DNA of 64,000 nucleotides from Dacryopinax spathularia (Eukaryota; Basidiomycota; Dacrymycetes; Dacrymycetales; Dacrymycetaceae), in the NCBI GenBank assembly GCA_037974965.1, contig JBBPFI010000008.1, positions 992,001-1,056,000 on the forward strand, given 5' to 3'. A program made the translations under genes and the position numbers. How positions within the stretch are numbered: position 1 is the first letter of the stretch; each line of letters opens with the position of its first letter. Under the pieces are notes generated by a model. The model worked only from the letters and a program-made list of their open reading frames with translations. It was not told where the DNA came from and did no database searches. This document shows, piece by piece, positions 19,756-48,370 of the stretch.

Positions 19756-22700
19756 ATGTCCCTCCTCAAATGGATGGGCGTCGGCCAAGCCGAGCCCGCT
19801 CCGCCTCCAGCGGTCGTCATACCCGGGAAGGAGCGTACGCCCGGTGATCCGGCAAGTAAGATGTTCGGTATGGAAAATGTGCGTCCCCCCCCCTCTCTCC
19901 TCCCTCTTCCCTCCGCTCTCTCCTCCTCCTCCTCCTCCTCCTCCTCCTCCTCCTCCTCCTCCTCCTCCTCCTCCTCCTCCTCTCTCTCTGCGTGACTGTA
20001 TGCTAACTATTTTCCTCTCGGGACGTGTAGTTTGGTAATACTTGGTACGTCCCCCCCGCGCGCATATATGCATATATATCAATGCTGATCGTGCCCGCAG
20101 CTACGCAAACTCCATCCTCCAAGCACTCTACTTCTGCCAGCCCTTCCGCGACCTCGTCTGCGTAACACCCGACGGCCGCCCCTTGCCCGAAATACCCATC
20201 GCAAGTCTCGTAGAACAAGTCGCCCTCCCCGCCCCTCCGCCCAAGGAGGCCGCAGGAGCGAACGGGAACGGCGGAGCAAGCACAGCGAGCGCGGGAGGAG
20301 GAGGGAAGGATAGTACGGGTCAGAGTGCGGCTGGGAATGGAGCGACGGGGCAGGGGAAGGATGCGAAGGTGCCTGGGACGCCGGGGTTGGGTGGGCCGAA
20401 GTTGAGCTTTAAGCGGCAGAACAGTGCTACTCCCGTCGCTGCCGCTGCCGCCGGTACAACCACCAGTAGTGCTCCGAGCACGGACGGCACACCGTCGCTA
20501 GCGGGGAGCGTCTCTGCCGCCTCCAGCACGACCGCAGCCGACGGCATTACCTCCAGCAACCCCGGCCCCACAACAACAACAACAACACCAGGCCCCGACG
20601 GCACCCCCAGCACCCCCACCCCCCTAACCCGCAGCATCACCTCCCTCCCCCCTCTCCCCCCCTCGATATTCTCCGCCCTCCGCGCTCTCTTCCTCCACAT
20701 CTCCCTAAACGTCGAGGAGAAGGGTCTCGTCTCGCCCAGCGCGTTCATCGCTGCTCTCAAGAAGGAAAATCCCGAGTTTCGGACGAGCCAGCATCAGGAT
20801 GCGCATGAGTTTTTGAATTATTTGTTGAATAGGGTCGCGGAGGATATTGACGAGAATCGGACGAAGTGGGAGGAGCGGGAGCGGGAGGGTGCGAACGGGG
20901 TCGACGGGGACAAGCACGAGCTCGCGAACGGGATAGCGAACGGCTCCGCCGCGCCTACCGACCCCGCCGCTGAGCCCGCATCCCAGTCCTCAGACCCACC
21001 CAAACCCCACCCGCGCCCGCTCCCCTCCTCCCGCCCCACGCTCATCCAGCACCTCTTCCAAGGTCAACTCACCAACGAGACCCGCTGCCTGAACTGCAAC
21101 ACCGTCTCGCACCGGGACGAGACGTTTCTGGACCTGTCGATCGACATTGAGCCTAATTCGAGCGTTACTGCTTGTCTGAGGGAGTTCTCCAAGGGCGAGA
21201 TGCTGAGGGAGGAGAATCGGTTTATGTGCGAGTGCTGTAATATGTATTGTGATGCTGAGAAGAGGTGCGTGCTTTTCCTCACTCGCTTTCCTTCTCCCTC
21301 TCGGCCGCTTCCTTCGCTCCTTCCCATCGCCCCATTCAAAGATTGTTGGCTAACTCCCACTCCCGCACACAGGATGAAAGTCAAATCCCTCCCCAACATC
21401 CTCGCCCTCCACCTAAAACGCTTCAAATACATCGAAGACGCCAACCGGAACATCCGCCCCACCAAGCTCACTTATCGCGTCGCGTTCCCGCTCGAGCTGC
21501 GCTTGTTTGACACGAGCGACGATGCGCTTAATCCGGATAGGCTGTATGAGCTGTTTGCTATTGTTGTGCATATTGGCGCGTGAGTGGCGTTTTGTTTGCT
21601 GTCTCTCTCCCTGCGTTCCGTCCCTCCGTCCGTTCTCTCCGTCCGTTCTCTCCCTGTGTCTGCCCTCGCAGCCTATTTCTCTCCCAGCCTCCCCCCTGCC
21701 TCCTCCTCAATATTCCCCCGTCCCCCGTCCCCCACCGCCATCGAAGCCAATGAATTGATGCTGATTCTGACTTGCAGCGGCCTCGCACACGGACATTACG
21801 TCACCGTTGTCCGCGCCCAAGGGAAATGGATCCTCTTCGACGACGACACGGTCGACGTAATAAAAGAATCCGACATAATGAAGTACTTTGGCGACGCACC
21901 CGGTGGGCAAGGCTACGTCCTGTTTTACCAAGCGGTCGACATTGACGTGCACGCGCTCGGGCTACCCGATAGGCAGCATAGCGACCTGCCGCGCACTACC
22001 ATCCCCCCTCCCGCTTTTCCGCCCGAGTGGTCCTCCGAAAAACAGTTCGCGGACAACGGCATCGTTTACACGCCCTACGCAGGGACGAGCCAAGCCGCCG
22101 CCGCTGCGTCGCTCGTCCCGCTCCCGCCGCCTACACCGGCTCCGCCCACCCCGACCCCAGCACAGCAGGGCAAAAAGGGCCTCAAACTCGATATACCCGC
22201 CACGCCGAAATTCGACCCTTCCGCAACGCTCAACTCGCTCCGCAGCCTCGCAGGGCCGCTTACGATGCCCACCCCCGGAAGCAGGGAGCAGAATGGAGGT
22301 TTCTTCAGTCGTACGCTTAGGCATTCGCAGAGCAAGATCGATAAGACCGCTGCTGTTGCTACGCCTACTGCTTCCACTGCTGCAGGGGGACTGGTCTCTC
22401 CGATCACCGCGCAGCCAGTCAGTGGAAGCTTGCCGAGCAGCATGACCCTTCCCCAGCTGAAACAGCGTCCCTCCTCGAGAGGCAAGGATGCCGCAGCGTG
22501 GTTCGCGGGCAAGATGGGTAAGGAGAAGCGCCGGGAGGGTGATGCGGCCACCACGACGGCGGACACGAATGCTAGTACCACGCCCAGCGCGACGCCTATG
22601 ATGAGGGACGACTCTGCCCCGCCTGTTCCGCCTCTCCCGCCTCTGCCTCCTTCTGCGTTGAGCGGGAACGGGAATGGCAATGGCAGTGGACCAGACAGCC

Positions 22701-23821
22701 CGCTCTTCGGACTGGGAATAACAGACCAGAGAAGACCATCCCTGCCGGGAAGCCTCGAGCGCGTACAGGAAGCCGTTTCCCCACCCCCGCATACACCTCC
22801 TGCACTCGTCGAGGAGCCCGCCTCCAATCCGCCCCAGCAGAGCCCCGGGTTTTTCTCCCCCGCTGGGCCGGGCATAGCGCATCGCTCCACTGGAGGTGGC
22901 GGCGGGATGCTCTCGCCTCCCATCTCGCCTGCGCCGCCTATCTCTCCCTCGTCCAGGACCTCTTCATCCTTGCAGGCGGCGGCTATTCCGGAGTCACCGA
23001 TCGAAGAAGCTGCCAGTGGCCGATCACAGAGCGTGGAAGCGCCGCAGCCAAGGCCCGTCATGCACCGCCAGCGTCCTTCAACCGCAAGCGGTCCAGTTCA
23101 GATGCCGAATGGCCCACTCAACGCTCGATCTCCCCCAGAAGAAGGGAAAGGTGGCGAGCGTGCACGTGGTCGGAGGATGTCGAGAGACGACTCGAACGAC
23201 AAGCCAGAGCGGAAGTGGTATCAGCGTATAGGGAAGAACAAGGACCGGCCGAGCACCGCGGGCGGGATGACGAACAGCTCTGGCAAATCAGAGGGTGAGG
23301 ATGATTATGCCATCCTTACTAGCCCGCCGCCGCCGCCTGTCGAGGTCATCGACCTGGCCACACCACCGGAAGGGCAGCATAGCTTCGTCCCGCCTGTTGG
23401 GAGACATCACTACGTTCCTCCGCGCACAGAAGGAACAGAGGCAGACACCTCGATCGACAATTCGTCGACTACCTCTTCGGACGAGAAAGCAGACCAGACT
23501 GGTCCGCTGCCTGTCCCGCCGACCATGTCCCCGTCGATGTCCCTCCCTCCCTCGGCTTTCCCGACCCTCAAATCTGCGCCTGCCAGCCCGAACAGAGCGG
23601 CAAACGACAGCAAGCCCGAGCCACCAAAGCCAAAGCGAAAATTGAGCATGAACAAGCCGTCGCTCCAGCTCAGCCGGCTGAGCTGGTTTGGGAGCAGCAA
23701 CAACCTGAAGGATGCGGCGGGCGGAACGTCTACATCTGAGAAGGATAACGGCGCGTCTGGCAATGCGCCCCTCACCCCTACCACAGAATCGAAGAAATCG
23801 CGGAATCCGCTCGGGCGATAG
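19756..23821 (+). CDS. Ubiquitin C-terminal hydrolase, USP12/46-CreB type
   Basis: Five exons: 19756-19878, a 14-nt microexon 20031-20044, 20101-21264, 21373-21579 and 21778-23821. All junctions keep frame. The Cys box [22 protein letters not shown] is assembled across the first three exons, and the catalytic Cys codon is split between the microexon and exon 3. The zinc-binding CLNCNTVSHRDE and CECCNMYC lie in exon 3. LALHLKRFKY follows, then the His box LAHGHYVTVVRAQGKW and YVLFYQ. The order matches USP12/USP46 and fungal CreB/Ubp9/Ubp13, which remove ubiquitin from transporters and regulators with WD40 cofactors. Two insertions are unusual: a Gly/Ala/Thr-rich block of about 150 residues after the Cys box, and a C-terminal disordered tail of about 600 residues rich in Pro/Ser. 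Confidence 0.9.
19921..19981. repeat. (TCC)n microsatellite in intron 1
   Basis: About 20 perfect trinucleotides on the plus strand, in the first intron of the deubiquitinase gene, upstream of the branch-point-like TGCTAAC at 20000. It could vary in length without touching protein sequence. Confidence 0.92.
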
Positions 23822-32599: not shown

Positions 32600-32606
32600 A
32601 GCGAAG
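32600..32606. repeat. Left target-site duplication AGCGAAG
   Basis: Seven bases directly left of the terminal repeat. The identical copy is at 48064-48070, directly right of the other end. Confidence 0.85.
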
Positions 32607-32634
32607 TATGAGGTTACGTTTGGGTCAAAACCCT
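32607..32634 (+). repeat. Left terminal inverted repeat, 28 bp
   Basis: Begins TATGAGGTTAC and ends CAAAACCCT. It differs from the right copy at three internal positions. Confidence 0.85.
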
Positions 32635-32654
32635 GAGACGAGCGAGTAACACCG

Positions 32655-32825
32655 CCCATTCACCCTGTATTCACAGGTTTACGCGGAAAATCACAGCCGG
32701 CTCACCCCGCATTCACCGTTCACCGCTCTTTCACCGCATTCTCACCCTGTATTCACCCCCGGTTCACCCTTGCCTCTCACCCTCCTTTCACCCTCGCACG
32801 GTGATCGTCATTTTCACCTTGCTGA
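32655..32825 (+). repeat. Left subterminal TTCACC array
   Basis: About 14 TTCACC or CTCACC words spaced irregularly by 4-12 bp, including CATTCACC and GTTCACC. The matching array at the right end is in the opposite orientation. Such subterminal repeats are typical transposase-binding arrays in large DNA transposons. Confidence 0.8.
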
Positions 32826-33339
32826 GCTTCCCCCTGACGGTCAGCCAGCTCCCATTCCCAGCCCACCCAGCCCGCCTCGCGACACCCCACCCATCGAAAA
32901 TAGCCGAACGCCAGGTTCCACCCAAGTCGACAGAACAGGGGTCCTGGTCCAGAAGACACTCCCAGGCGTGCCGGACCTGAGCATGTGAATAGGTGGTCGG
33001 CCCGTTTGCCCCGAAACCCTTCGTAGCTCCTCGGTCAACTCAAATACTGGGTACCCCGGGACGCCCGGGGCTCCTACTAGTAGCATTGTGAACGTATATA
33101 CATGGATTTAATTTATTTAATTTATTTAAACATGTTTTTCAACGCGAGTAATTGTAAGCCCTGCAGTGTCACGTGCAAACTGCACCCAGCCTATGGCGAG
33201 CCGCGTGCAATTTGCTCCCGCTCCATTTGCTCCCGATCATCCGCGCATTGTCTGACCAGCTGTGGACGCCGTCCTGTCCTCCTCCCATCTCCTCCTCCTC
33301 TCACCTCGACTGCATCCATCCGCCATCCCCGTCTCGACT
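32826..33339. other. Left inner non-coding region with one CCCGGG tract
   Basis: No gene supported. It contains ACCCCGGGACGCCCGGGGCT at about 33054-33073, the motif also found inside each gene of the element. An AT-rich ATTTATTTAATTTATTTAAA run at 33110-33130 may belong to the promoter of the gene starting at 33340. Confidence 0.5.
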
Positions 33340-34235
33340 ATGTCCCGCCTTCTTCAAAGCATCTCGGATGCGGCGAAGAAAGCCGGGAAACCTTTCAACT
33401 GCGACTCGCTTGGCCAAGAACTCGCTCAACGTCAGTCGCTCCGCAGCCGTTCGACTGATCCGGCTGTCGCCAGCCTCGAAGAAGGTCTCCTGGCTCCTCG
33501 CAACTCGACGAACGATGGCGATGGATCCGAACACTCCGAATCCGAGCGCAGCAACTACGGCAGTGACGCCAACGAACAAGAGGAGATGCTGGATGCTGAG
33601 GAACGTGGCGTCACTGCACAGGTGCGCATCGTCCGCCCCTCCTCTTGAGCAGCCGACTGATTTTAAGCCCAGAACCCGGATAACGTTTACGATGTCCCAC
33701 CCCCTCCCGGAGAAGACATGGATCCCGGGCGTCCCGGGCGTTCCAGGCCTCCTGGACGTCCCGGGTCCACCAGGCGTAGGAGGGCTGGCTTGACGACCTC
33801 TGAACGTCGTGAGCTCGAGCGTCTCCGCCGCAAGGCAATCGACCAGGCCAGCAGGAAAGCGACATTCGATTGCCTCGATATATTTATGGCAATCGGTAAG
33901 TGCATGAGCGAGTGCGGATCGAAGCTCCACCAGTTGCTTCGTGACTGCATCTATGCCACTGCGGCCTGCCTGAACGCCTGCGGAGACCACTGCACGCAGG
34001 AGAATATCGGCGTCTGCATGTCCGGGACATTCTGGGCGATCATCTTCATCGCCGTCTTCATTGCCATCGGATTCGGTAAATCCTCTTTGCTGCTGGCTGG
34101 TGAGCCTTTGCTGACTTCGAATTAGGTATCAGCGCCCTGGTGAAACTTCATCAGGGCGTTCCTGCCCTTGGTAGCGTCCCCCCCACCATGTCCGCGACCC
34201 TCGCTGTCGCTAATGCTACCGGCCTCCCCCACTAG
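33340..34235 (+). CDS. Element gene 1: Cys-rich protein with collagen-like linker and one membrane segment
   Basis: Three exons with clean junctions (introns at about 33622-33671 and 34077-34125). N-terminus MSRLLQSISDAAKKAGKP, an amphipathic helix. Then an acidic linker, and a PPPPGEDMDPGRPGRSRPPG-type collagen-like run (33700-33780). Next a basic helix (RRELERLRRKAIDQASRK), then a segment with eight or more Cys (CLDIFMAIGKCMSECGSKL...CIYATAACLNACGDHC). It ends in one hydrophobic span, FWAIIFIAVFIAIGFG, and a short tail (VANATGLPH). The family is unknown. The layout suggests a small membrane-anchored protein, of uncertain orientation. It is the first gene from the left end. Confidence 0.6.
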
Positions 34236-34543
34236 TCAGATACTGTCTCCGTTATTCCCTTCATCGTGATTCCCGTGCCTCCATGTCTGTCGTCCTGTGG
34301 TACAGTTAATGAGTGATACATGCTTGTTGTTCTTGTACAATCAGCCCGCTCGTGGCTTAGTTACATCTGCAAAGCAACCACGTCTCCACTTGTCTGGGCT
34401 TTAGCACTCATCTTCAGTCTGCTCTTTGCTCAGAGCACGTAATTGTTCACTATGTTCAGGACATTTACTCGGCATACTGGCATACATTTCAGCCAAACTA
34501 TCTTTGAATATCGGGCATTGCGTCATTCCCCGATATTCCCGCT

Positions 34544-34650
34544 GATAACCCTGAGAACCCTGATAACACGGAGAACCCCGATAACCCTAACAACCCTAAT
34601 AACCCTAACAACCCTAATAACCCTAACTGCCCAGACAACCCTAACCCTGA
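34544..34650 (+). repeat. 9-bp telomere-like array (AACCCTAAY)
   Basis: The core at 34583-34627 is alternating AACCCTAAC and AACCCTAAT, flanked by decayed units (AACCCTGAG, AACCCCGAT). The words contain the fungal telomere unit CCCTAA, but the period is 9, not 6. It lies between element genes 1 and 2. One frame would read Asn-Pro-Asn repeats, but that frame has no start codon and an upstream stop. Confidence 0.7.
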
Positions 34651-34835
34651 CACGTGCCCATGCCCGGCAAGCTCTTTGTTTCAGGCAGTGTGGGCCGAGT
34701 CGGAAGCATTTCACCCCTTGCTCCACTACCACCACTTACCTCCTGAGATTGGTACGTTCGCACTACATTGCCATCCACCCCTTTGTAACCCTAATCTGAC
34801 CTAACCACACAGAAAACCCCTCGTGAACACATATC

Positions 34836-35564
34836 ATGGTGCTTGCAGATACCCACAACTCTCCGGGTAACCCCGTACTCCGCACCCATGCGTTGACAGA
34901 GGAAGGCGGAATGGCTTCACCCGCGCTTCCCTCGAACGGCTCCCCACCTTCATATCCTGTCTGCAATACAACCGGCACGGATATCGACAGGCCTGAGGTC
35001 ATACCGATTTCACACACTGCAGCCCAGTCCAAGACCGCTGCGGACGCCGTGTATCCCGTGCTTCCCGGGAATCCCGGGCATGCTGGGTTGACGGGGGCTG
35101 CAGATACGAAGCATCCCTCTCCTACTTGTTCCGAGAAGCAAGTATTCGTCAGCTCCAACCAGGAAGTGGCCCTCAGCGACACGCCCTGGTTTTATCTGGC
35201 CAGCATCAGCCCGTCCGGCAAGGCCAATAATACCGTCGATGAACACAAATTGCGCCTCTACGCCAGCTCATACACAACCACGGCCAACGCCATCGACGCC
35301 ACGCTTCACCTTCTACAAATCCCAACACGCTGCGCGGAGCAACTGTTCGGTTGCTCCGTGGGTCGGTCCGAAATGACAGGTCAGGACCCCTGTTTCAATA
35401 GGATCGAGTCAGACGAGGAGAGAGAGGCTCGGTTGGCAGCCTTCGCAAGAGGGGTGAAAATTGCCGACAATCTTGCTTATATCGTACAAGCGCCGGCCGC
35501 TGCCGTGAACGCCCTGTGGGCTCAGTTGGGGAAGTTGACACAATGCCTTCCGGCGCTCTCGTAG
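34836..35564 (+). CDS. Element gene 2: unknown protein, partly duplicated at 42.8-43.4 kb
   Basis: Single open exon from MVLADTHNSPGNPVLRTHAL. ATG 34836 is supported because the two partial copies at 42779-43391 begin a few bases upstream of the same codon. The N-terminal 90 residues are polar. A VLPGNPGHAGLTG collagen-like patch is encoded at 35057-35090 by CCCGGGAATCCCGGG. Downstream is an ordered-looking part (FYLASISPSG..., KLRLYASSYTTTANAIDATLHLL) and a helical end (EEREARLAAFARGVKIADNLAYIVQAPAAAVNALWAQLGK). No family recognised. The preceding intergenic region has good splice signals, so a short upstream exon cannot be excluded. Confidence 0.5.
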   Translation: MVLADTHNSPGNPVLRTHALTEEGGMASPALPSNGSPPSYPVCNTTGTDIDRPEVIPISHTAAQSKTAADAVYPVLPGNPGHAGLTGAADTKHPSPTCSEKQVFVSSNQEVALSDTPWFYLASISPSGKANNTVDEHKLRLYASSYTTTANAIDATLHLLQIPTRCAEQLFGCSVGRSEMTGQDPCFNRIESDEEREARLAAFARGVKIADNLAYIVQAPAAAVNALWAQLGKLTQCLPALS

Positions 35565-35845
35565 TTCTGAAGTGTACCGTGTCTTGAAGCCATCGCTTCT
35601 CCTCTTTCTTACTATTGTACACCGCATGCAACTCCTGTCCGTAGTCAGATGATACTCCCTGAAACTGTTCAATCAATATCCATTCAATTCACCTCCCTGG
35701 CTCCTTGGTGGAACAAGCAGTTCAACTTTACATGTTCCTCAGGGCCGCCACGCGAACGATGGCAAGCACGCCCTTGCCGTTATCAACGCACCCTTTTGGT
35801 GTATGCCTTTGCAGGTGGAGCTGCACCTGCGACTAGCTCACAGTC

Positions 35846-37594
35846 ATGGCTACATTCAACCCTGCTGCTCTTCGGCGTCATCCGGAGCTGGCTGGAACCA
35901 CGCTCGGGGTGCATTTCGATCGCCTTCAGCAGACGGTGATAGCTACTCTCCGAATGGACTCAGGGAACCGGGGTCGATTGGAGGGGACCAGGCTGTTGGT
36001 CACTCAGTTTTGGGAGGCGGCTAGGCAAGTGAGCACTCGTAGTCCATTCCCATGGCTCTGTGGTGCTAACCTATATGGTGTCTCTCAGCTATTCGACCTT
36101 TTCCGCACTGCCGATGTGGCAAGAATAGAGCACGATCTCGTTGACATGCTGTCTAAGCTCGACGAGGCGCGCGCTCGCAGCCTCGACGACTGTGTTGCAA
36201 GAGCGGCTCCCCAGATTGTTACTCGACCACCCGGGATGCCCGGGCGTCCCGGGCGTCCCAGGATCGAAATCAACAAGGTCTATCTTAGCCAAACAACGCA
36301 CTTGGCTTCTACGTCGGCAATCGCAAGACGACTGCAAGTGAGCAGGCGAACGGTCCGACGAAGACTCCTGGAAGAAGGTCTCGCACACGCCGGACTTCCC
36401 ATAGTCGAAGTAGTCAACCATGCAGACGGGGGTTCCCACCTCCATTGGCATGGTCGGCGCCGCGACCCGCTCCAGCTCACAGAAGACGAGCTAGACGCAC
36501 TGGTGAATGACTGGCGCAAGCGCTTCCCGACAAACGGCAGGCGCCTACTCAACGGCCACCTGGTTTCACTGGGTTACCGGGTACCTTTGTGGCAGCTGAG
36601 CGCCTCTCTCCGCCGCATCGATCCCGAGCCGCTGTCCTTCAATCGTCAGCAAATCCCCCGGCGGCCTTATTCGGTAGCTGGACCCAATTCTCTCTGGCAT
36701 CATGACGGCCAGCACGGGCTTGTACAATGGGGTTTATACATCCACGCCTTCGTCGACGGTTACTCTCGCTGCATCACCGCGATACGAGTGAACCCCACCA
36801 ATCGTTCCGAGGCGGTTTTGTCCGTCTTTCTAGAAGGAGTCTCCCTTTTCGGCACACCTTCAAGAGTGCGCGGGGATCATGGAGGGGAGAATGTGAAGGT
36901 AGCTGAGTGGATGTTAGAGCACCGGGGCAGGAATCGTGGCTCCTACATATGGGGCAGGTCTGTCCATAACACCCGTATCGAGAGGATGTGGGTGGACGTG
37001 ACAAATTCTTTTGGAAGAAAATGGTCGTCCTTCTTCCGCACTCTCGAAGCCTCTCATGGGCTCAACCCCCTCAACCAGGACCACCTCTGGCTGCTACATT
37101 GGCTCTTCCTCCGAGATATTACGCACGACGCCATCGCCTTCCAAAACCAATGGAATCACCATACTATGAGCCTGGTAGATGGCAATCAACGACCGGCCGA
37201 CCTCTTTCTGGATGGCTGCTTGGCTCTAGGCGCTCGAGGGATTCACATGCTACCTCCCGAGGATCCGCAATTCCAACGAAGTCCTCGTTTATATGGTTCA
37301 GAGGTGGCGGAGACCACTGAAGGCTCAGAGGGAGGTGAACTCGAAAATCTCACCCTTGCAGATTCGGTACCTCCGCCGGCAAGTGGGTTTGACACCAGCA
37401 CGGCCGATATGGATGCTGTCCCAGCGGAACTCTCAGATATCGATTCACCCGCCTTGGCCTGTCCACTCCCTCCTTCTCGTGTCCCCGAACTTGTCCAGAG
37501 CCTGTCCGAGCTCTCCCTGTCAAGTGACGTGATTACATTGACCGAGCGTTGGAGGCGCGGACTCCGGGCTTGCATCAATCTAGCACGAAGATGA
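35846..37594 (+). CDS. Element gene 3: DDE integrase (rve-like catalytic core)
   Basis: About 580 residues, with a probable 60-nt in-frame intron (36029-36088, GTGAGC...CTCAG). The N-terminus is helical. A collagen-like TRPPGMPGRPGRPR follows, encoded at 36226-36264. Next a helix-turn-helix, TSAIARRLQVSRRTVRRRLLEEG, of resolvase/IS3 type. Then the catalytic core: SLWHHDGQHGL (first Asp), IHAFVDGYSRCITAIRV, RVRGDHGGEN (second Asp) and SVHNTRIERMWVDV (Glu). The D..D(35)E order and the WHxDG and DGYSR motifs are those of the integrase-core family seen in many basidiomycetes and animals as host-annotated proteins. It should cut and join the element's ends, with the subterminal arrays as likely binding sites. 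The C-terminus is acidic. It appears complete. Confidence 0.85.
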   Translation: MATFNPAALRRHPELAGTTLGVHFDRLQQTVIATLRMDSGNRGRLEGTRLLVTQFWEAARQVSTRSPFPWLCGANLYGVSQLFDLFRTADVARIEHDLVDMLSKLDEARARSLDDCVARAAPQIVTRPPGMPGRPGRPRIEINKVYLSQTTHLASTSAIARRLQVSRRTVRRRLLEEGLAHAGLPIVEVVNHADGGSHLHWHGRRRDPLQLTEDELDALVNDWRKRFPTNGRRLLNGHLVSLGYRVPLWQLSASLRRIDPEPLSFNRQQIPRRPYSVAGPNSLWHHDGQHGLVQWGLYIHAFVDGYSRCITAIRVNPTNRSEAVLSVFLEGVSLFGTPSRVRGDHGGENVKVAEWMLEHRGRNRGSYIWGRSVHNTRIERMWVDVTNSFGRKWSSFFRTLEASHGLNPLNQDHLWLLHWLFLRDITHDAIAFQNQWNHHTMSLVDGNQRPADLFLDGCLALGARGIHMLPPEDPQFQRSPRLYGSEVAETTEGSEGGELENLTLADSVPPPASGFDTSTADMDAVPAELSDIDSPALACPLPPSRVPELVQSLSELSLSSDVITLTERWRRGLRACINLARR

Positions 37595-37771
37595 ATAATG
37601 ATTCGCACATGTATCTAGTCGCATACAATGAGAGTCCTAGTATTGTCCACGATTGTGCCTATTAAACTGCATCAACTGGCAGGACGCTCGGGAATCCCAG
37701 GTGAACACCGTCACGGTTGAGTGGAGACCCTGGACGCATCGCTCTCCCCTACCTACCCCATCTGTGTGCTC

Positions 37772-40187
37772 ATGCCTGCAGAACCTCACTATCTCACCCG
37801 ACATCAGCGCCGTATGCAACGTCAAAGCAGCGAAGCCGGCACTATCCGCCCTACAGCAGTGATTACCGCTCCCTCTACCTTGCCACCACCTCCCGATCGC
37901 CGCTCTCCGGACATGACCCCAACTGCCCGTCCCAGTGCAACAACCACGCTCGACCCGGCTGCCGCTTATCCCTCTGGAGAAGATCGCGTCCAGTCTGAGC
38001 AGGATGGAGAGAGGGACGAGGTCACTCCAGAGCTGACACGTCCTCTGGTGCTGGGAGCTGATTACGAACATATCAACTCGTACGCCCTCTCTTGGTCCCC
38101 ACCTGAAGGCCCGCATGCTGATGTTGATGCAGCCTGCTCGGTACTGTTGTGAGGGGTGCAAGAGAGCGTCTCGGTGCTCCCTTGATTCCCGGGGATCCAG
38201 TTATCCAAGGGTTTCATCCATCAAGCTCTAGTGTCCCGACCGACGACGATGTCGACGAGTCAAGTGAGAATGCGTCGACTGCCTCGGTCCGTGACCGCCC
38301 CGCAACCCGGGAGCGTCACATGGATGTCCGGCCTTTCGTTCGTGAGACATCTGTCACAGGAACAGGATCAGTCGGCCAACATGAAGGAACGGAGTCTGGT
38401 GAAGGCGTCTTCCCTGATGGCGAGGCTACACGAGTCGGAGTACAGCAGGATGTGCACCTTCGGGGTGGCTCAGGAGGTCAGAGAGCGGCAGATGAAGGTA
38501 TGTACTGCGTGCCCTCACATGATGCTCATCTCACGTGGAACCAGAAGGCAGGTTCTCTGTTGTCCTCATCGTGTTTGAGTCGGACCAAGCAAGAGGGGTA
38601 CCATACAGTCGGGCCAAAATGAAATCCAACCGCTCCCTTGATGCTTCAACTCTCCACCTTATCCGACGAATGTTTCGGACATCACCAGGCGTGCCATCTC
38701 ATGGATTGGCCCAATTTCTATCTCCTCGATACAGCCACTTCGCCCTCGCGACCTCCCGCATCCCCGCCACCGAGAGCACAGGATTTCATGGACATCAAGT
38801 CCTCGGCATTCTGGGCAGGATCCTCTCGGAAGAGCAGGACCTCCAGGACTCCCTGGGTTCCTTGTCGCCCCTGGAGCCCATGGATCAGCAGGATGGACGA
38901 ACGCAACGATTTATCGCGTCTCTGCCTCCAAATATACCCAGAAGCTGGTATGCAGGCAAGGTCTATGTCCTCTATTTAGTGGCCTTGTCCGCCCCTCGAA
39001 GGAGCATCATCGATATGATGCCTCGCACCCCCCCCCGCACGCCATCACCTCGCCTCTCATCGTCTCCGGAACGCAGTAGATCGTCGGGTACGATACGGAA
39101 TTCTAGACCGCTACACAACGATGCCTTCACTCAATCGATTCATCCGCCTTCTCCACCGGTTCCGGGTCGTCCGCGAAGCAGTTCGGCCGAGACCGGTCCA
39201 CAGCAGCTCACCACGCCCGCTCCCCTAGGATCTCTTCCAGTCCACCACGAGTCCGTCGGCGGCGATACAGCCCGACACCAGCGCATTGAAGAGCAATCCC
39301 GCAGCGCGAGGCTGGCTGCCTTTCAACCTCGTGCCGAGTATCTCAACGACAGATTCCCTTTCGCGCATCAATTTCTTTCGGAGGACCTGTACATCGATGG
39401 CGAACTCGTTCCCCGCACCTCCATCGTCTGCTGGGTGCGACGTATGGAGCTGTTCAACGAGCTTGCAACAGCTCTGGGTATGCCCTTTTTACGGGAAAAT
39501 GACGTCCACGTCGTTCCAGACCCGGTTGGCTGGGACGGTTCGATCACAGCTGACAATCTGGTCCACTGGTTTTCGTCGCACCCTCGGGGCAATGACAACT
39601 CCCGCCGAACCGTCGATAATTACCGGACGAAGTTGAAACGCCTCCGTGCCTTCTGGGAATTCCAGCGCGAGTGGTATTTCCAACAACAGAATCAATGGGA
39701 GCAAGGGTTGAATCTCACGGAGGCTGGCAGGAGGAAGCTGATCATTGCTGGGATTGTTGGCTATTGCTTCGCGCCTTCAGGAGCTGCTCGCTCAAGTATA
39801 TGCGAGGGCACACCGCCAGGGCTGATAGCGGCAACTGCAAGATTGACGAGACGACAGTCTCTGGAAACGGACATACGGAGGTTACACGACGCGTGGTGGC
39901 GGCGCCGACTAGCTCATTTTGGTCAGTAGTCATATTCGCGTTGTAATCCTAGTCACTTGAATACAGACCATTGCATTCCCGTCCCCGGCATGAACGGGCA
40001 TCCCGGGGATCCCGGGATGCCCGGGATCCCCGTAATGGCCTTGGCTGTATCCCTTTCCAACAGATGTAACGGTCTCGGCCATCCTCATCGCACAGCAAGC
40101 GGGCGAGCCAAACAAGCGGTTAGAAGTCTTATTGCTCTCTCGAATCATACACGCAGGCACAAGCGCGGTGATCCAAGAACGAGGTGA
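37772..40187 (+). CDS. Element gene 4: unknown protein ending in a collagen-like tail
   Basis: Assembled from exons starting MPAEPHYLTRHQRRMQRQSS (37772). A GTGAGG donor at 38149 pairs with an acceptor at 38231. A second intron lies at about 38493-38545. A long Pro/Ser-rich region follows (PRTPPRTPSPRLSSSPERSR). Then comes an ordered domain (YLNDRFPFAHQFLSEDLYIDGELVPRTSIVCWVRRMELF... and YRTKLKRLRAFWEFQREWYF) and a basic helix (RRLHDAWWRRRLAHF). A last intron leads to MNGHPGDPGMPGIPVMA and an Arg-rich end at TGA 40187. Around 38845-38900 another frame reads GPPGLPGF, so exon choice there is uncertain and two genes are possible. No domain recognised; the ordered part could bind nucleic acid, but that is a guess. 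Confidence 0.45.
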
Positions 40188-40493
40188 GTCATTGTGGCGA
40201 CTTGCGATGTAGTCACAGCTAACGGTGTCCGAACACTCCGCGTGGGTGAGCAACCCGGCATACATAAATGGCACTCATGCATACGTCCCGCATTTCATCT
40301 CTCTCCTTCTCTCCACCACCTGCTCGGCAATCCTGCATATTCTCCACTCGAAAGCATTGATCACACCACACTCTTAACTCAAACTTCTTCTTGAACTTCA
40401 CTATCCTCCTCCTCGCACACTCGAAGACATTGCCGCACCAAGCATATATCGCACTTCACCGACTTGAAGACGTTGGCGACGCACGCATATATC

Positions 40494-42400
40494 ATGCCAC
40501 GCAAGTCCTCTCGCATTCAAGCGCGCTCGCCCTCTCCTGTAATGCTTGACACCGAGCCCGAAGACGAGCCCGCTGTCACCCCCGGGAGCTCACAGGGGCA
40601 AGGTTCCTCTGCGTCAGACGGAGATTCTCAGGAGCGCAGCAACCAAGAGGAGTACGACGAACCCGATGACCCACAGCAGCCCGCGGAGAGCGACGATGGC
40701 AACGACTCGTCGGACGAGGAACCGCCCGACGATGGCATGCTCACCGTCTATCGTTTGCAGGGCGAGTTCTTCCTCACTAAGGCGCAAGGCTACCAGAAGG
40801 AGGTATGCAAGCACATCCGCATCGCCAAGGAGATCTTCACGAGGATGGGACGCACCTACTACGGTACGTCCTGCGCATGCGCGTTCGACTGGCTCCCGGA
40901 CTGAATGCTTATCAGGCTGTTGCTTTATCGACGACCCCGAGTGCAAATGCGGCCATTGGGGTGAGTCAAACCTAGCTTGCCGTCGGAGTGCATATACTTA
41001 CTGAGAACGCTTGTAGAGTCCGCGGAATCTGTGAAGGCGCGCCGTAAGGAGGGTATCGGCTTGGTTGTTACCGGCACGCATCGCTACCCCCGAGGCAAAG
41101 GCCCCCAATATGATCTCGGCGATCTGCTTCAAGAGTCGCCTGTCAAGGTCGCACGCATGGACATTTGCAAAGGCAAACGCAGCACGCAGGCGGCCGCCCA
41201 GCTGTCTGCTGAGCTCGATCGTCAGATGAGAGCGACTCAGAAGAAACGAGAGGTGGAGAAGACGCAAACGAAGACCAAGGGCAACGCCAAGCCGAATGCA
41301 CATGGGACCAGCTACCGCGGAAGGGGAGGAGGGGCAGGGGCCGGATCGTCCCGCCATACCGCTCCTGGGGGAGGAGCCGGTGCTTCAGCGCCTCCCGGGC
41401 GTCACGGGCAACCCAAACGTCCCGGGAATCCCGCGACCCACAGCAATCGAAGCAGCACCACAAATGCCCAACCATTCCTTAATCCCCCTCCTCGTCGTCC
41501 CGCCGTGCCGTCCAAGCCTACTCCCGCGCCTAAGAAGCCTGGGACATTCGGGAGTGGTAGGAACCAGAACGGGGGAGTTAAAAACGACAGTTGCAATGTA
41601 CGTACTGACGCTGCCAAGACTGGTGAGTAAGCCATTGACAGCACATATAGGGCAATGGCAAGCGTGATCGCAACCATGTCGATCTCAGTGAGGACGACGT
41701 CAGTCCATCTCCTCGTTGCATGCCGGACTATCGCGCTGATTTGCCTTCAACAGCTTGATCCTGATGCGATGTTCCGCCCGAAGAAGGTGCAGAGAAGCAA
41801 GCATCCCGCCGATTTACTGAAGGAAGCTATCGAGCGACTCTCCCGACCCGGCCTGCTATACCAAATCAAGCTAGACTTTGCCGAGACCTTATTCAAGGAC
41901 GACCACATATTCCCTCGCCATGTGAGACAGGAAGGGCAGGGTTTCGTGGATATGGCACAGACCATGGCGGACGCAGCCACGAAGATGGAACAAACGGCGA
42001 AGCTGTTGAGCGGAAGGGGCAAGGGGAAGGTGAGTGACTCTTACGGTCACATGTCGACGAGCTGACGCCTCTTGCAGGAACGTGAGCAGCCGGAGGATCC
42101 AAACGGCGATCCTGACAGGGACATCGAGGAGGTGTTGAAGGACGCCATTGGGGTGCTCAAACGACATGACGTGACGGTAGATGCCAAGATCGCCTTTGCT
42201 CTCAAGGTCTTCGGCAATGAGAAGATTTACGACTCTACTCTGCGGTCAGTGGCGACCCCTATGCTGGAAAATGCCGGTCGCACCATCCGAGTGGAAGAAG
42301 ACAATGCTCGAGAGAGGGCGGAGGGCGACGTGGTGAGCAAGCACGCGCAACTGGCGAGGCGTCATACTAATATTGCACACAGAATGATTACAACGAGTAA
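40494..42400 (+). CDS. Element gene 5: unknown acidic/basic protein with collagen-like segment
   Basis: Seven exons. MPRKSSRIQARSPSPVMLDT starts a basic then strongly acidic N-terminus. An ordered patch follows (MLTVYRLQGEFFLTKAQGYQKEVCKHIRIAKEIFTRMGRTYY), then a CCFIDDPECKCGHW mini-exon that could bind a metal. Next are helical sequence, an RGRGGGAGAGSSRH low-complexity block and APPGRHGQPKRPGNPATH (41392-41436). After an intron starting GTCAGT near 41698 it continues LDPDAMFRPKKVQRSKHPADLLKEAIERLSRPGLLYQIKLDF. It ends in two alpha-helical repeats (DPDRDIEEVLKDAIGVLKRH... and STLRSVATPMLENAGRTI) and NDYNE at 42400. The end of the protein resembles a coiled or armadillo-like helical domain by eye only. 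No family recognised. Confidence 0.5.
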
Positions 42401-42778
42401 AACCGGCTTAATGCTCTGAACGTCGTCTCCTCTCATTGCCGACTGGCTCCGGCTGTTTCTAACCCACCTGCTTTTCTTCAGATCCCCGTTATGCCCGTGC
42501 TACCATGTCTGTCATCGTTTCCCATTCCATTCTGCAACCCCTCTGCGAAATCCATTCCTGTCTTTTGGTGTCCACGTCTTCTTGTGTTCATAGCGAGTCC
42601 TGCTGTCTTTTTTTGCTATACAGTACTTGTCCTACTCAGTTTCAGTCTCGCACTGCTCCCTTGCATCCCGGATGAGTGACTAATATGAATTAAATGCGGT
42701 ACATATATACAGTCTGCACTTAAGTGTGCGCTTAAGAGGGTGACTACGAAAGACCTGAACCATGTTAGCGCGCCGAGG

Positions 42779-43031
42779 ATGCCCGGGATTCCCGGGAAGC
42801 ACGGGATACACGGCGTCCGCAGCGGTCTTGGACTGGGCTGCAGTGTGTGAAATCGGTATGACCTCAGGCCTGTCGATATCCGTGCCGGTTGTACTGCAGA
42901 CAGGATATGAAGGTGGGGAGCCGTTCGAGGGCAGCGCGGGTGAAGCCATCCCGCCTTCCTCTGTCAACGCATGGGTGCGGAGTACGGGGTTACCCGGAGA
43001 GTTGTGGGTATCTGCAAGCACCATGATATGA
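42779..43031 (-). pseudogene. Inverted partial copy A of element gene 2
   Basis: Nearly identical to the first part of gene 2 (34829-35080) in inverse orientation. Similarity stops exactly after the CCCGGGAATCCCGGGCAT tract. It is non-functional on its own because the rest of the gene is absent. Confidence 0.8.
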
Positions 43032-43045
43032 ACAAGTAGGAGAGA

Positions 43046-43391
43046 GGACCACTTCCTGGTTGGAGCTGACGAATACTTGCTTCTCGGAACAAGTAGGAGA
43101 GGGATGCTTCGTATCTGCAGCCCCCGTCAACCCAGCATGCCCGGGATTCCCGGGAAGCACGGGATACACGGCGTTCGCAGCGGTCTTGGACTGGGCTGCA
43201 GTGTGTGAAATCGGCATGACCTCAGGCCTGTCGATATCCGTGCCGGTTGTACTGCAGACAGGATATGAAGGTGGGGAGCCGTTCGAGGGCAGCGCGGGTG
43301 AAGCCATCCCGCCTTCCTCTGTCAACGCATGGGTGCGGAGTACGGGGTTACCCGGAGAGTTGCGGGTATCTGCAAGCACCATGATATGTAT
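43046..43391 (-). pseudogene. Inverted partial copy B of element gene 2
   Basis: Longer inverse copy, covering gene 2 from just before its ATG to AACCAGGAAGTGG (about 35171). It sits in tandem with copy A and shares its few base changes from gene 2. Duplication of this pair therefore probably followed one inverted transfer. Confidence 0.8.
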
Positions 43392-43688
43392 ATTCTGTAT
43401 GACTTCAGCCCATGGTCTTGTCGTTCATGCACGGATATGCAGGTCTGGGATCTGTATCGCCTTGATCGTCTTGATCTCCACAGACTGAGCTTCTATGCGT
43501 GGAGCATGGATGATCGCTAGCGTTTGCCAGCACATGCATTTCTATTGTTGTGGACAGTGATAGAAGGGGGACTAAAACGATCGCCTAGGCCAATGGCTGC
43601 CATTCGCAGACAGTGGCAATGGGTTGGTGGATCAAAGGCACGCCAATCAATATCATAAGCAATAATGTACCCTGAAACAGCAAGATAT

Positions 43689-46600
43689 CTACACGGTATT
43701 GAAGTTCTTGCCAGATGTCAGCAAAGTAGCTAGAAAGACGCGATCGAATTCTTCGCCCTCATCATCCGCAATAGCCAAGCAGTGCAGTTGCGTCCCATAT
43801 TCGACCCGCAACAAGGAAAAGCAAACTCTAGCGGTGAGTAGGGTCTCGGTACTGAGGCGACCATCAGGCGAACCGGGAATATCGACTATGTTTGGCAGGA
43901 ACTCGATCTGCACGCCTATATAAGCCAACCCAAGACTCTGGCAAGCATGAAACGGAACAACATACGCGGTAGCGCAGGGAGGACGGAGCCGCTCCACTCC
44001 AAGGACAGCAAGGTCAAGTAGCAGCCTTCGGATGTTTGGCCGCTGCATGGCGGGCGACTCTACAGCCGGCAAGTTTCCCTCCTGGCCCAGGGTGGCATAT
44101 ACTGCCCGAAGTCCCTCTGAACCCGGTGACGAGGTGAGCCCCGGGAGTCCCGGGCGCCTAATGAAGCGAGTCATTGCCTCTTTCAAGGCAATCCAGACAT
44201 CCCATGGCACAAGGGGTCCTGCCGACTGCCATCGCACTCGTTGTATGAGGTAGGTGTCGGGATCCAGTGAGATGTCGCGATACAAGACGGCCAGAAAAGT
44301 GGGAAAGTCGGAGAATGCGCGGTGTACATAGTACTGTACTGATGTCAGTGATATTCAGCGATTCAAAGTGGCTTGACGCCTTACATTCCTCAGCCGACCA
44401 AAATGGCGGAGACCGGCCTTGTAAGACACAATCTGAGAATCATTTGAGGTGACGTCAGGATGTCCGAACAAAAGGTGGTTGCGCAGTCGCCCTTGAATGC
44501 GTCGGTGTTCCGTCCGTGTCATCTTCCAGCTCGTGATGTCCACTGGGAAGTCCTTCAAAGGATAAGCGATTGAACCACAAGGAAACCGGAGTTAACCTAC
44601 CACATCGATCGCTGTCAGGCGATGGACGAAGTCCACCATTTTATACTTGCCTACTGCCATGCAGGCCTGCTGTGCGGAAGACGGGTCGATAACATGGTAC
44701 TTGGCGAGCCGTTCCCATGAGGTAAGCCAGTCAGCGGCCCTCGGTGCAAACGCCCGGATAAAGGCAACCTTCTCGCAAAGCTGCATAGCAGCGTCGAAAT
44801 CGTCCGAAGCCGCCACAAGGAAAAGAAAAGGGGAGATATTGAAGGGTCCCGTGTTGCAATGGAGTATCCAGATCAATGATAAGACCCCCATCCCCGTCCA
44901 GAATAAAGCGTCCGTATAGTGGTAGCCTGGCACTGAGAGGAGACCAACATAGTCATCCACAGTCGTAGTATAGGACTGGCTTTTGATGGCAAGATACCTT
45001 TCCATCGCTCGGTGAAAGGTGACTCGACTCGGTCCGACGCCCATGGTAACTAGACGTCGTGATCCTCCAGGAACGATCGCTCGAGCGAAGCTGATTAAGA
45101 GTTAGCGAGCTGCATTCCGAAAAGATTACGGGCTCACATCTCAACCTTGAAATGCGAGGGGCTTAGTGCAGCGCAGTAGTGTGTCAGAACACGCTTAGCC
45201 TCCTCTGTAGGCATGGGTGAGTGGGAACGCGGGCTAGGAAAGGCGCTTGCCAGTAGCCCCCAAAGCTCCGATGCTATCTGCCCTGCAAGCGCTTCAATAG
45301 CGGTCTCGGTGCAAGATTTGGGTTGCCCGGGGTAAGTGTAGACCTCGAACGGCCGGGCACTGTCCCCAGGAGGAGGGTCCAGGTAATCCAGGGCTTCGTT
45401 GGACCAGCGGGACGACTCAGCAGAGGAAAACGCGGACTGCAACTCGAGAGGACACCAGACTGAAGGAGGTTAGCATGCTAGACACGAGATCTGAGCGAAC
45501 TTGCGCACCCGGTGAGTTGGGCTCCGCCTCATCTTCCTCAGAGTCAGGATCCGCTGTAAACAGCCCAACATTGGAAGCCGTGGGGTAGTCATCGTCGCTC
45601 AGGATCACGTATGGCTGAATGGGTGAATGACGACGTGCTCGTACACGACGGGTCTGGGACGAGAGGGAGGACGGGGGAGAATGTGTAGGTGGAGACCATA
45701 CAGGTGAGGGTGAAGGGGATCCCGGGCGCCCCGGGGTGTCAACCATGCCTGGTTGTCCCGGGTATCCCGGGAGTCGGGGATGTGATGGTAGATGAGGAGA
45801 GAACGATCGACCAGCAGCCTGTTGTTGGGGTATGGCCCATGTATCCGCATTTTCTGCTTGCGCGACAGGTGGAGAAGGAGACGGCTGATGCTGTGGTCTT
45901 TCACCAGCGAGTGTTGCACGCGCAAGGGCCGAGGGAGAGGGCAAAGGCGTCGAGGAAGTTGAATGGGAGAGCAAACGAAGCTCCGCAGGCGCCGAGACTG
46001 GCACGGCGGAGTTTGGCGCACCCGTATTCGCATGTCCTGATAAACCAGTGGGCAGTCCAACCCTGGCGAAGGATCGTGGCTCCGCTACTGGAGGAGGTAC
46101 AACACATGCAGGACCAAGGCAGGAGTCATCGAGATGAGGGAGCTCGGGATGGCCGTGAGAGATAAGATGTAGAGCCCAACGAATGAAGCACAGGTGCCGG
46201 CCAGGGCTGCGTTGCACATGCTCGGGGAGATAGCCAGGTATGCCGCCATAACGGGGAGCTATGGGATGAGCCACGTCAGCAAACGGCGGAGCTCAGCTAT
46301 CGACGACGCATACCGATAAACACCAAGAATGACTTATAGCGCCTTCCAGGCTCCTTTGCTCGCCAGTTACGATAGACGCTTTTGAGGTGATCGTGGACGG
46401 TTGGGACCATACTGATATTCAGGATTTCGTACTGCCCTGGGGGAGTGTACCTTTGATCAGCTGGGCGTACAAAGTGAAACAGTTCCGGTGTGAAAAACGT
46501 GGTCCCATTAGCCTGAGCTGACGATAGGGGTGGATTGGTCGTGGGGTCCGTTTGATCGCCTTCAGGAGGTGGAGGGAAGTACAGGCCGTATTGCGCCATG

Positions 46601-47307
46601 TGGGCTAGTAGAGCGGCGGTCAGGTCTTCGAACCCCCGAATGCCTGGATCGACCTTAAAAGCGAGTCCCACTGACTTGAAGCGTTCGAGCATGGTATCCA
46701 GTCCATTTTCGTCGAGTCCTCCGTATGGGCGAGTTCCTTGTTCATCGGTGAGGGGAAAGACGTGTTCGATACCGCCAAGCTTGTGAAGGAATTAACGACT
46801 TCATGAAGATAGACTATATGCATGGAAACGCACCGGACAGGGCAGTATCATGATGTATACATGCGCTCGTGTACCGTTCCTGCCCACAGTCGCGAATCTG
46901 GCTTGCCCCCGACCTTCTACGCCACGCCCAGGATCCTCGGGAATGTCGAGATCCCCGGGACCCTCGGGATGCCCAACGCTTCCATGACCCCTCTCGTCGT
47001 CCGTGTTCCCATCAAACCCGTGCTGATTGCGGGGAGCCATTCTCCCACCTCCACCTGATGGTTGTCGACCCCTCCTACTACGACCTCGACCGTATGTGCG
47101 TGCAGGAGGGTGGCGAGCGGATGCGGAGAGTCGGTCGCTGTTGGCAGTTGGACCTTCTTGGCCATCAAGGCGCTGAAGAAAAGTTGTCGTGGCGATAGGG
47201 ATGCCGGGCATCTGCGCAAGAGCACGGGCGGGGGCAAAAACGGGTTGAAGGGGAGGAGGGCCTGGTAAAGCGGGTATCCTTGAAGGAGCTTGAGGGGGAG
47301 AGGCCAT
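43689..47307 (-). CDS. Element gene 6: large unknown protein transcribed inward from the right end
   Basis: At least seven exons read leftward. It starts MASPPQAPSRIPALPGPPPLQ (47307), then an Arg/Gly-rich part and GHPEGPGDLDIPEDPGRG. The next exon begins LGGIEHVFPLTDEQGTRPYGG and contains YFPPPPEGD and TPPGQYEILNISMVPTVHDHL. A long disordered exon (45480-46274) holds LPGYPGQPG and DTPGRPGSPSPSP. A structured region follows (DDYVGLLSVPGYHYTDALFWTGMGVLSL and TGPFNISPFLFLVAASDDFD). The last exon (43689-44285) includes IRRPGLPGLTSSPGS. The structured region weakly recalls the N-lobe of degenerate fungal HECT-like proteins, but no catalytic Cys context was seen at the C-terminus, so I give no function. 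Three collagen-like tracts in one gene is the most in this element. Confidence 0.5.
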
Positions 47308-47509
47308 GGCAGGTTAGGAAGGCAGCATATGCGGTGGAGTGTGGGACCGAGTTGCGGGTGGTGGCTCAGATCGACGAGCGGAGAGGAAGGAGGGACGGAA
47401 TGTCGTAGCAGCGGTGGAAATTGACACGTTGAGGTAAACAGACTTGGGGCGCGTAAACAGTGTGAACGTCAGGCGAGGTCACGGGGTAGCCATCTTTTCT
47501 AGCGGCAAG

Positions 47510-47734
47510 ATGCGGGCCGTAGTCTGGATTGATGGTCGCAATTACCGTAGTTGGGGAACGGCAACTAAATCAACGGAGTCGGTTAGAGAAGCCGGTCTTG
47601 AAAGGACCCCAAAGGAAAGCGCACGGATTCGAGGTGTCCCTGGACCTCCCGGGGCTCCCGGGAGCCCCGGCGTTGGCCAAGATGTATGGATGATCAAGGG
47701 GGACAGCGAGGCAGGGAGAGTGAACGTCGGATGA
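47510..47734 (+). CDS. Possible small gene with collagen-like segment
   Basis: Open frame of 74 residues (MRAVVWIDGRNYRSWGTATK...RGVPGPPGAPGSPGVGQ), divergent from gene 6. It is kept only because the (CCCGGG NNN)n tract at 47637-47668 falls in the same Pro-Gly-X frame as in the other genes. It may equally be non-coding DNA between gene 6 and the subterminal array. Confidence 0.22.
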   Translation: MRAVVWIDGRNYRSWGTATKSTESVREAGLERTPKESARIRGVPGPPGAPGSPGVGQDVWMIKGDSEAGRVNVG

Positions 47735-48000
47735 GCCAAGGGTGATTGCGCTGTGAAGCGAGGGTGAGGAGACAGTGATCCTAGGGTGAATGGAGAGATT
47801 TCATTGCGAACTTGTGAAGACACGGTGAACGGTTTAGATAGCTAACAAGGTGAACCAAGAGTGAGCAGAGGGTGAGAGGAGAGTGAAGAGAGAGTGAACG
47901 GTGAATGGAGGGTGAGTACGAGGTGAGGGAGCAGTGAACAGAGGGTGAATGGGGAGTGAGCGGTGAGTGGAGGGTGAACCGGCTGTGAACCGGCTGTGAA
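47735..48000 (-). repeat. Right subterminal GGTGAA array
   Basis: More than 20 GGTGAA, GGTGAG or AGTGAA words over 265 bp, opposite in orientation to the left array and longer. It ends in a direct repeat GAACCGGCTGT about 30 bp before the terminal repeat region. Confidence 0.8.
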
Positions 48001-48035
48001 CGGCCGATGATCCCGCTTGCTGGCCTAGCACGTGT

Positions 48036-48063
48036 AGGGTTTTGTCCCATATGTAACCTCATA
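48036..48063 (-). repeat. Right terminal inverted repeat, 28 bp
   Basis: Reads AGGGTTTTG at its inner edge and GTAACCTCATA at the outer edge, followed directly by AGCGAAG. Confidence 0.85.
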
Positions 48064-48370
48064 AGCGAAGCAATGTCCATTATGAGTGCTCTACACGCCC
48101 GACGGCGAACAGATTAGCTAAACGGCCTTGCCCCCTTCGGCAGCTGGACCTTGAACACCAGCGCCTCATTATCGAAATTAAACCCGCTCGCGTCCTTATA
48201 CTGAATCTTCCCAAAGTTCATGTACCCGTCCTGTGTCACAAAATCATTGTCGTTCGTCGCGAGCACATAGTACCATCCGTCCTTCGCCTCCTTCCCATCG
48301 GCAGGCAGAACCACCATCCCCTCCCACTTCTCGTTCAGCAGGTTGTCGTCGTCTGCGCCGCCGTTGTGTA

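Follow-up and report, generated by a model that had tools for sequence, protein, structure and literature searches.

A 15.5-kb integrase-bearing element of Dacryopinax spathularia, probably one copy of a multi-gene DNA transposon family

Borders and genes of element A

A 64,000-nucleotide stretch of the genome of the basidiomycete Dacryopinax spathularia (assembly GCA_037974965.1, contig JBBPFI010000008.1, positions 992,001 to 1,056,000; the window) carries an integrase-bearing element of 15,457 bp, here called element A, at window positions 32607-48063 (C8:1024607-1040063). Its features are listed in Table 1. The 7-bp direct repeat AGCGAAG abuts both borders as a target-site duplication (TSD), and the two 28-bp terminal inverted repeats match at 25 of 28 positions (89%). 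Arrays of the pentamer TCACC lie subterminally in inverted orientation: the first 260 bp contain 11 copies, where 1.2 would be expected and none of 100 shuffles had more than 3; the last 400 bp, read inward, contain 12, where the expectation is 2.6 and the maximum of 100 shuffles was 6. The array beside the terminal repeat is 11-bp-phased. A preliminary description, made from the sequence alone, had reported the duplication, repeats and arrays, and all are present, the terminal repeats exactly where it had placed them.

The integrase reading frame is open and encodes a DD34E triad, which bears out the earlier claim of a full DDE integrase. Its Pfam matches are PF24764 (rva_4; E = 2.8e-60) and PF00665 (rve; E = 1.1e-8), and matches to helix-turn-helix (HTH)-like families fall below their cut-offs. 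Among 121 aligned sequences, the catalytic residues D287, D344, and E379 are conserved in 118, 121, and 116, respectively, with a D-E spacing of 34. A homologue search that scored 8000 candidates returned 364 proteins at E ≤ 0.001. The closest among the best 120 of these is from Trametes sanguinea (43% identity), and the species-named relatives in the same 120 are Agaricomycete fungi. In a tree that combined 18 integrase cores from this genome with 60 of the best 120 homologues, a single clade (support, 1.0), separate from the 60 homologues, holds 14 of the 18 cores. A PHROGs search gave transposase matches for the integrase and nothing else, and an Rfam scan gave 0 matches. Integrases of this type had been described as usually isolated, host-annotated proteins; those of other species are likely also parts of such elements.

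The remaining genes run inward from the two ends, as first described, with the left-hand genes on the plus strand and the right-hand g5 on the minus strand. A Pfam scan of the open reading frames (ORFs) gave no matches for g1 to g5, in line with the initial statement that they belong to no recognised family, and g5, used as the query in two protein searches, hit none of the 8000 candidates that each search scored. The g5 model has a Cys/His-rich middle part and a conserved C-terminal region. Near 44010-43905 its frame differs between copies, so a further intron is likely there. The element also contains inverted copies of its own sequence that are 98% alike, one of 346 bp (34829-35174 and 43044-43389) and one of 258 bp (42773-43030); they were probably copied recently within element A because they are far more alike than element A and its relatives. 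Tandem 9-bp telomere-like repeats (CTAATAACC CTAACAACC...) lie between g1 and g2 at 34533-34645.

Table 1. Features of element A (window coordinates) and positions of the related elements (genome coordinates)
Feature	Location	Strand	Remarks
Target-site duplication, left copy	32600-32606		AGCGAAG
Terminal inverted repeat, left	32607-32634	+	28 bp; starts TATGAGGTTAC
Subterminal array, left	32649-32818	+	TCACC/TTCACC
CCCGGGNNNCCCGGG sites	33055-47671		13, forming 10 clusters throughout the element; single CCCGGG, 32
g1	33340-34125	+	Small; probably two exons; hydrophobic stretch near C end by eye
g2	34836-35564	+	Tentative ORF; 5′ part repeats 43044-43389 in inverted orientation (98%)
Integrase/transposase	35846-37594	+	582 aa; HTH-like region and PF24764/PF00665 core; D287, D344, E379
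g3	38523-39929	+	ORF; 5′ end may extend upstream
g4	40494-42419	+	Spliced; exon limits approximate
g5	43689-47307	-	1104-aa model; 6 introns of 47-55 bp
Subterminal array, right	47739-48000	-	Inverted relative to left array
Terminal inverted repeat, right	48036-48063	-	28 bp
Target-site duplication, right copy	48064-48070		AGCGAAG
Element B	C8:686671-698987
Element C	C5:658770-673846
Element D	C2:1060897-1075854
Element E	C3:749859-766710
Element F	C3:2226096-2242329
Element G	C8:43967-60611
C4 copy	C4:504769-543886		39 kb
C11 copy	C11:390130-429073		39 kb

Related copies in the genome

The ends of element A were used as a search pattern in the genome assembly (29.2 Mb in 24 contigs; one genome only). 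With up to 3 mismatches allowed, the pattern matched at 12 places and a reversed control at 0; two looser patterns gave 20 and 46 matches, each against 1 for the control. The end sequence of element A is thus not a chance match, given its 12 genomic places and none for the control. Matching end pairs enclose an integrase match at nine loci, that is, element A and eight further loci, ranging in size from 12 to 39 kb. The preliminary description would have been refuted had the ends occurred with the integrase at this locus alone, which these eight loci show not to be the case. The two 39-kb copies are identical over 2 kb near one end and 94% identical over 1.3 kb near the other. Six additional end pairs are only 435 to 471 bp apart; the two of these short derivatives that were examined keep both ends and contain neither element genes nor CCCGGG. 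The lone ends at C1:2500887 and C8:348076 have identical flanks and look like a duplicated segment. A PIF1-like helicase gene (PF05970; E = 1.4e-12) lies at C4:511724-515764 inside the C4 copy, of which it may be an own gene or part of a nested element.

All 10 insertions for which both borders were examined have a direct repeat of 6 to 8 bp abutting the ends. The repeat is a perfect 7-bp TSD in six (elements A, D, F, and G, insertion M1, and the C4 copy), 7 bp with one mismatch in element B, 8 bp in element C, and 6 bp in element E and insertion M2. Every end examined has the termini TATGA..TCATA.

The genes were also compared between copies. Matches to g3 are found in elements B to G and at further integrase loci; g4 is conserved in elements C and D and weakly in element E, g1 in elements B, C, and D, and g2 weakly between copies. 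In correctly framed, unsaturated comparisons, the ratio of nonsynonymous to synonymous substitution rates (dN/dS) was 0.08 to 0.25 for the integrase, g3, g4, and g5 (g3, 0.16 to 0.25; g4, 0.11 to 0.22; g5, 0.08 to 0.21). The earlier count of at least five other genes comes close: g3, g4, and g5 have both conservation and dN/dS in their favour, g1 has conservation alone, and g2 has weak support. Of the 14 members of the integrase clade, 12 have matches to both g3 and g5 no more than 45 kb from the integrase; of the remaining two, the one at C1:2144 kb is accompanied by g5 only and the one at C7:1518 kb by g3 only. None of the four integrases outside the clade has a g3 or g5 match within 45 kb. 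Because they are constant partners of the integrase clade and show purifying selection, g3 and g5 are taken to serve the element rather than to be chance cargo.

On the strength of the precise ends, the 6- to 8-bp duplications, the related integrase-bearing copies, the ends-only short derivatives, and the conserved integrase, g3, g4, and g5, we consider element A very probably a copy of a multi-gene DNA transposon family. Several observations weigh against this conclusion. The integrase is interrupted by stops in several copies, so a large share of the family may be inactive, and the single genome showed neither an empty site nor a transposition event. On C13, a g3 match stands alone, with no integrase match close to it. 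Synonymous divergence (dS) exceeds 1 in many comparisons, which makes the dN/dS values rough, and two comparisons were saturated and gave no ratio. Finally, TCACC arrays are not enriched in elements E, F, and G or insertion M2, so the arrays would be dispensable for the family as a whole.

Transposition can be outlined from the rve/DDE class of the enzyme. The integrase would bind the terminal repeat, and the adjoining TCACC array, where present, would supply further binding sites. The two ends would be brought together and the element excised or copied; joining across a 7-bp stagger, sometimes one of 6 or 8 bp, followed by repair, would yield the target duplication. Short copies would have to be mobilised in trans, because they have both ends and no genes.

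A function for g5 was suspected by eye, namely, that of a divergent HECT-type ubiquitin ligase that would guard the transposition complex or degrade a host defence factor. A Cys is invariant in 10 of 10 aligned g5 tails (one row, C14, being a weak match with E = 1.5), a Phe stands four residues from the end in all nine complete tails, and distant g5 copies read T-H-V-C-F-x-x-L-x-L-x-x-Y, which we take to resemble a HECT active site. One hhalign run superposed the two Cys regions (P = 0.032). Against this, hhalign probabilities were 0.04 to 1.6%, profile searches of Pfam and the PDB gave no HECT match for g5, a genome-wide search for HECT at E values up to 10 gave 13 matches, none within these elements, and an AlphaFold model of one g5 exon, computed without an alignment, had a predicted local distance difference test score (pLDDT) of 33, too low to be of use. 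The profile tests thus lent the HECT identity no support; we retain it as a rival reading but regard it as decidedly unlikely.

Several other genes lie in the window. A Tigger/pogo-like transposase (PF03184, PF03221; 48535-50292) adjoins the right end of element A; farther along are a MULE-type transposase ORF (58239-59354) and a NACHT/NB-ARC ORF (61357-63144). To the left, a ubiquitin carboxyl-terminal hydrolase spans two adjoining ORFs (20042-23818), split by an intron or a stop.

Relation to described transposons

Element A had been called unassigned, which overstates its isolation: IS3EU and Styx elements, as far as the available excerpts of their published descriptions go, have the same TA..TA ends, an rve-type transposase, and several genes, although the TSD length differs. 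The excerpts give IS3EU elements TA..TA ends and usually 6-bp TSDs (PMC10045372), and rust IS3EU families the ends TAYGG..CCRTA and an alpha-kinase gene opposite to the transposase (PMC12730594). The family described here shares with them an rve-type DDE transposase, with no HHCC motif noted in ours, TA..TA termini (here TATGAGG..CCTCATA), terminal inverted repeats, basidiomycete hosts, and, in some families, extra genes (PMC10045372, PMC12730594). Styx of Zymoseptoria, in the excerpted description, is likewise a fungal element that has several genes, an integrase among them, and short inverted ends, and whose degenerate copies are moved in trans by intact ones; it differs in its size of about 7.9 kb, its four coding sequences, its 6-bp TSD, and its ascomycete host, and was compared by description only (PMC10853768).

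The family could accordingly be nothing new in kind but an IS3EU-superfamily member of the usual sort that carries long cargo, a view we hold to be evenly balanced between true and false. Its TA..TA termini fit, and elements with extra genes have been published, with the four coding sequences of Styx and with alpha-kinase and TET/JBP genes opposite to the transposase in rusts (PMC10853768, PMC12730594, in the parts available). The TSDs argue the other way, being 7 bp in 7 of 10 insertions (one of them mismatched), 8 bp in 1, and 6 bp in 2, against the 'usually 6 bp' of IS3EU (PMC10045372, in excerpt). So do g3 to g5, which match no Pfam family, g5 also matching no scored protein, and which are not among the genes named for IS3EU in the excerpts. 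Element A has no TET/JBP or alpha-kinase match, and its repeat is 28 bp long, compared with more than 30 bp in the rust elements (PMC12730594, in excerpt). The family may work like IS3EU and Styx and may belong among them, as judged from published descriptions rather than transposase sequences. Because the usual TSD length is not found and the transposase lineage was compared by description only, it is not filed here as an IS3EU member. No description of this transposon family appeared among the matches listed from the open-licence literature (Repbase being outside this scope), and no mention of PF24764 turned up among the best 10 of 55 matches there.

Two other kinds of large element were rejected. 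One is a virus or Polinton-like element that became integrated and is now without its capsid genes: an rve integrase, terminal inverted repeats, and a size of 15 to 39 kb also fit Polintons (Mavericks), which are likewise long elements bounded by inverted repeats. In the scanned ORFs, Pfam gave no match to PolB or to a capsid, a protease, or an ATPase, the 39-kb copies having been read in part; for element A itself, the preliminary description's statement that capsid, PolB, and packaging ATPase are missing agrees with the Pfam scan of its ORFs, in which capsid families were not searched individually. The only PF03175 match of the genome sits on contig C19, outside the elements, and we consider a viral or Polinton origin highly improbable. 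This PolB match (C19:27816-29084) contains an in-frame TGA and perhaps belongs to mitochondrial or plasmid DNA. Starships are also giant multi-gene fungal elements, but their captain is a tyrosine recombinase, for which the scanned ORFs gave no Pfam match, whereas the transposase here is an rve/DDE integrase.

A dispersed CCCGGG motif

Element A contains CCCGGG 32 times, against an expectation of 5.3 and a maximum of 10 in 30 shuffles; the remaining 48.5 kb of the window has 8 occurrences, fewer than the 18.5 expected. The double motif CCCGGGNNNCCCGGG has 39 occurrences genome-wide. Of these, 37 fall within elements A to E (13 each in A and D, 7 in C, 3 in B, and 1 in E), which are five of the nine elements and make up 0.26% of the genome; the reversed control of the motif occurs at 2 places. 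The binomial probability of this confinement, 8e-94, is overstated, since the copies are related and the sites tandem. No double motif is present in the examined parts of elements F and G and the C4 copy. Element G has a motif of its own, TTCGANTCCTTCGA, with 8 of its 11 genomic places inside G, four of them forming a single tandem run; the control occurs at 1 place. The search for motifs of further lineages that had pointed to the one in G also gave a CGAACACCATCCCATCC minisatellite in element F and weak candidates in element E.

Most simply, the CCCGGG sites would be places where a protein encoded by the element binds and acts on its chromatin or transcription, because the two short copies examined have no CCCGGG. 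The motif lies in coding and noncoding DNA, is confined to one lineage, is replaced by a different motif in a sister lineage, and is absent from the short mobile copies. These features fit a part in the control or protection of the long element rather than in end cutting. We propose that the CCCGGGNNNCCCGGG sites may be bound by an element-coded regulator or anti-silencing protein.

Alternatively, the sites could be a neutral by-product of slippage, gene conversion, or selection for Pro-Gly-rich linkers, to which we give an equal chance of being right or wrong; neutral spread by slippage or conversion is as likely as the regulatory reading. The units are tandem with a 9-bp period, and CCCGGGNNN encodes Pro-Gly-X in two of three frames, with the genic sites reading Pro-Gly. 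However, 6 of the 13 CCCGGGNNNCCCGGG sites of element A fall outside gene models. Cluster places are also kept between elements: 12 of the 16 motif clusters of element A lie within 100 alignment columns of a cluster in element C, compared with a mean of 3.7 under circular shifts (7 of 2000 shifts reach 12), although the motif may itself guide the alignment. Likewise, a g5 stretch that reads R-(D/E/Q)-G-L-P-x in elements D, E, F, and G and the C4 copy is R-P-G-L-P-G in elements A and C, which looks like gain of the DNA motif within a conserved protein.

A partial precedent for regulatory sites exists in Arabidopsis, where short motifs arrayed within a VANDAL family are bound by that family's VANC proteins, which reverse silencing, according to the available excerpts of PMC5735166; the VANC21 motif YAGTATTAY is located mainly in noncoding DNA. 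The elements described here resemble VANDALs in having a short tandem motif confined to one element family, with other motifs in related families, and differ in that the sites also occur in coding DNA; the likeness is one of motif distribution alone (PMC5735166, in excerpt). By this analogy, the family might possess its own sequence-specific anti-silencing or chromatin system, in which an element-coded protein would act on lineage-specific sites of 9-bp period (CCCGGGNNN in elements A to E, TTCGANTCC in element G), much as in VANC/VANDAL co-evolution but independently and reaching into coding DNA. We put this forward tentatively, as a rather unlikely possibility.

The family links many orphan mushroom proteins of the 'integrase core domain' kind to a concrete type of mobile element that has defined ends, partner genes, small derivatives, and a size of up to 39 kb. 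Its element-confined motif may offer a handle on how large fungal transposons escape or tune host silencing.

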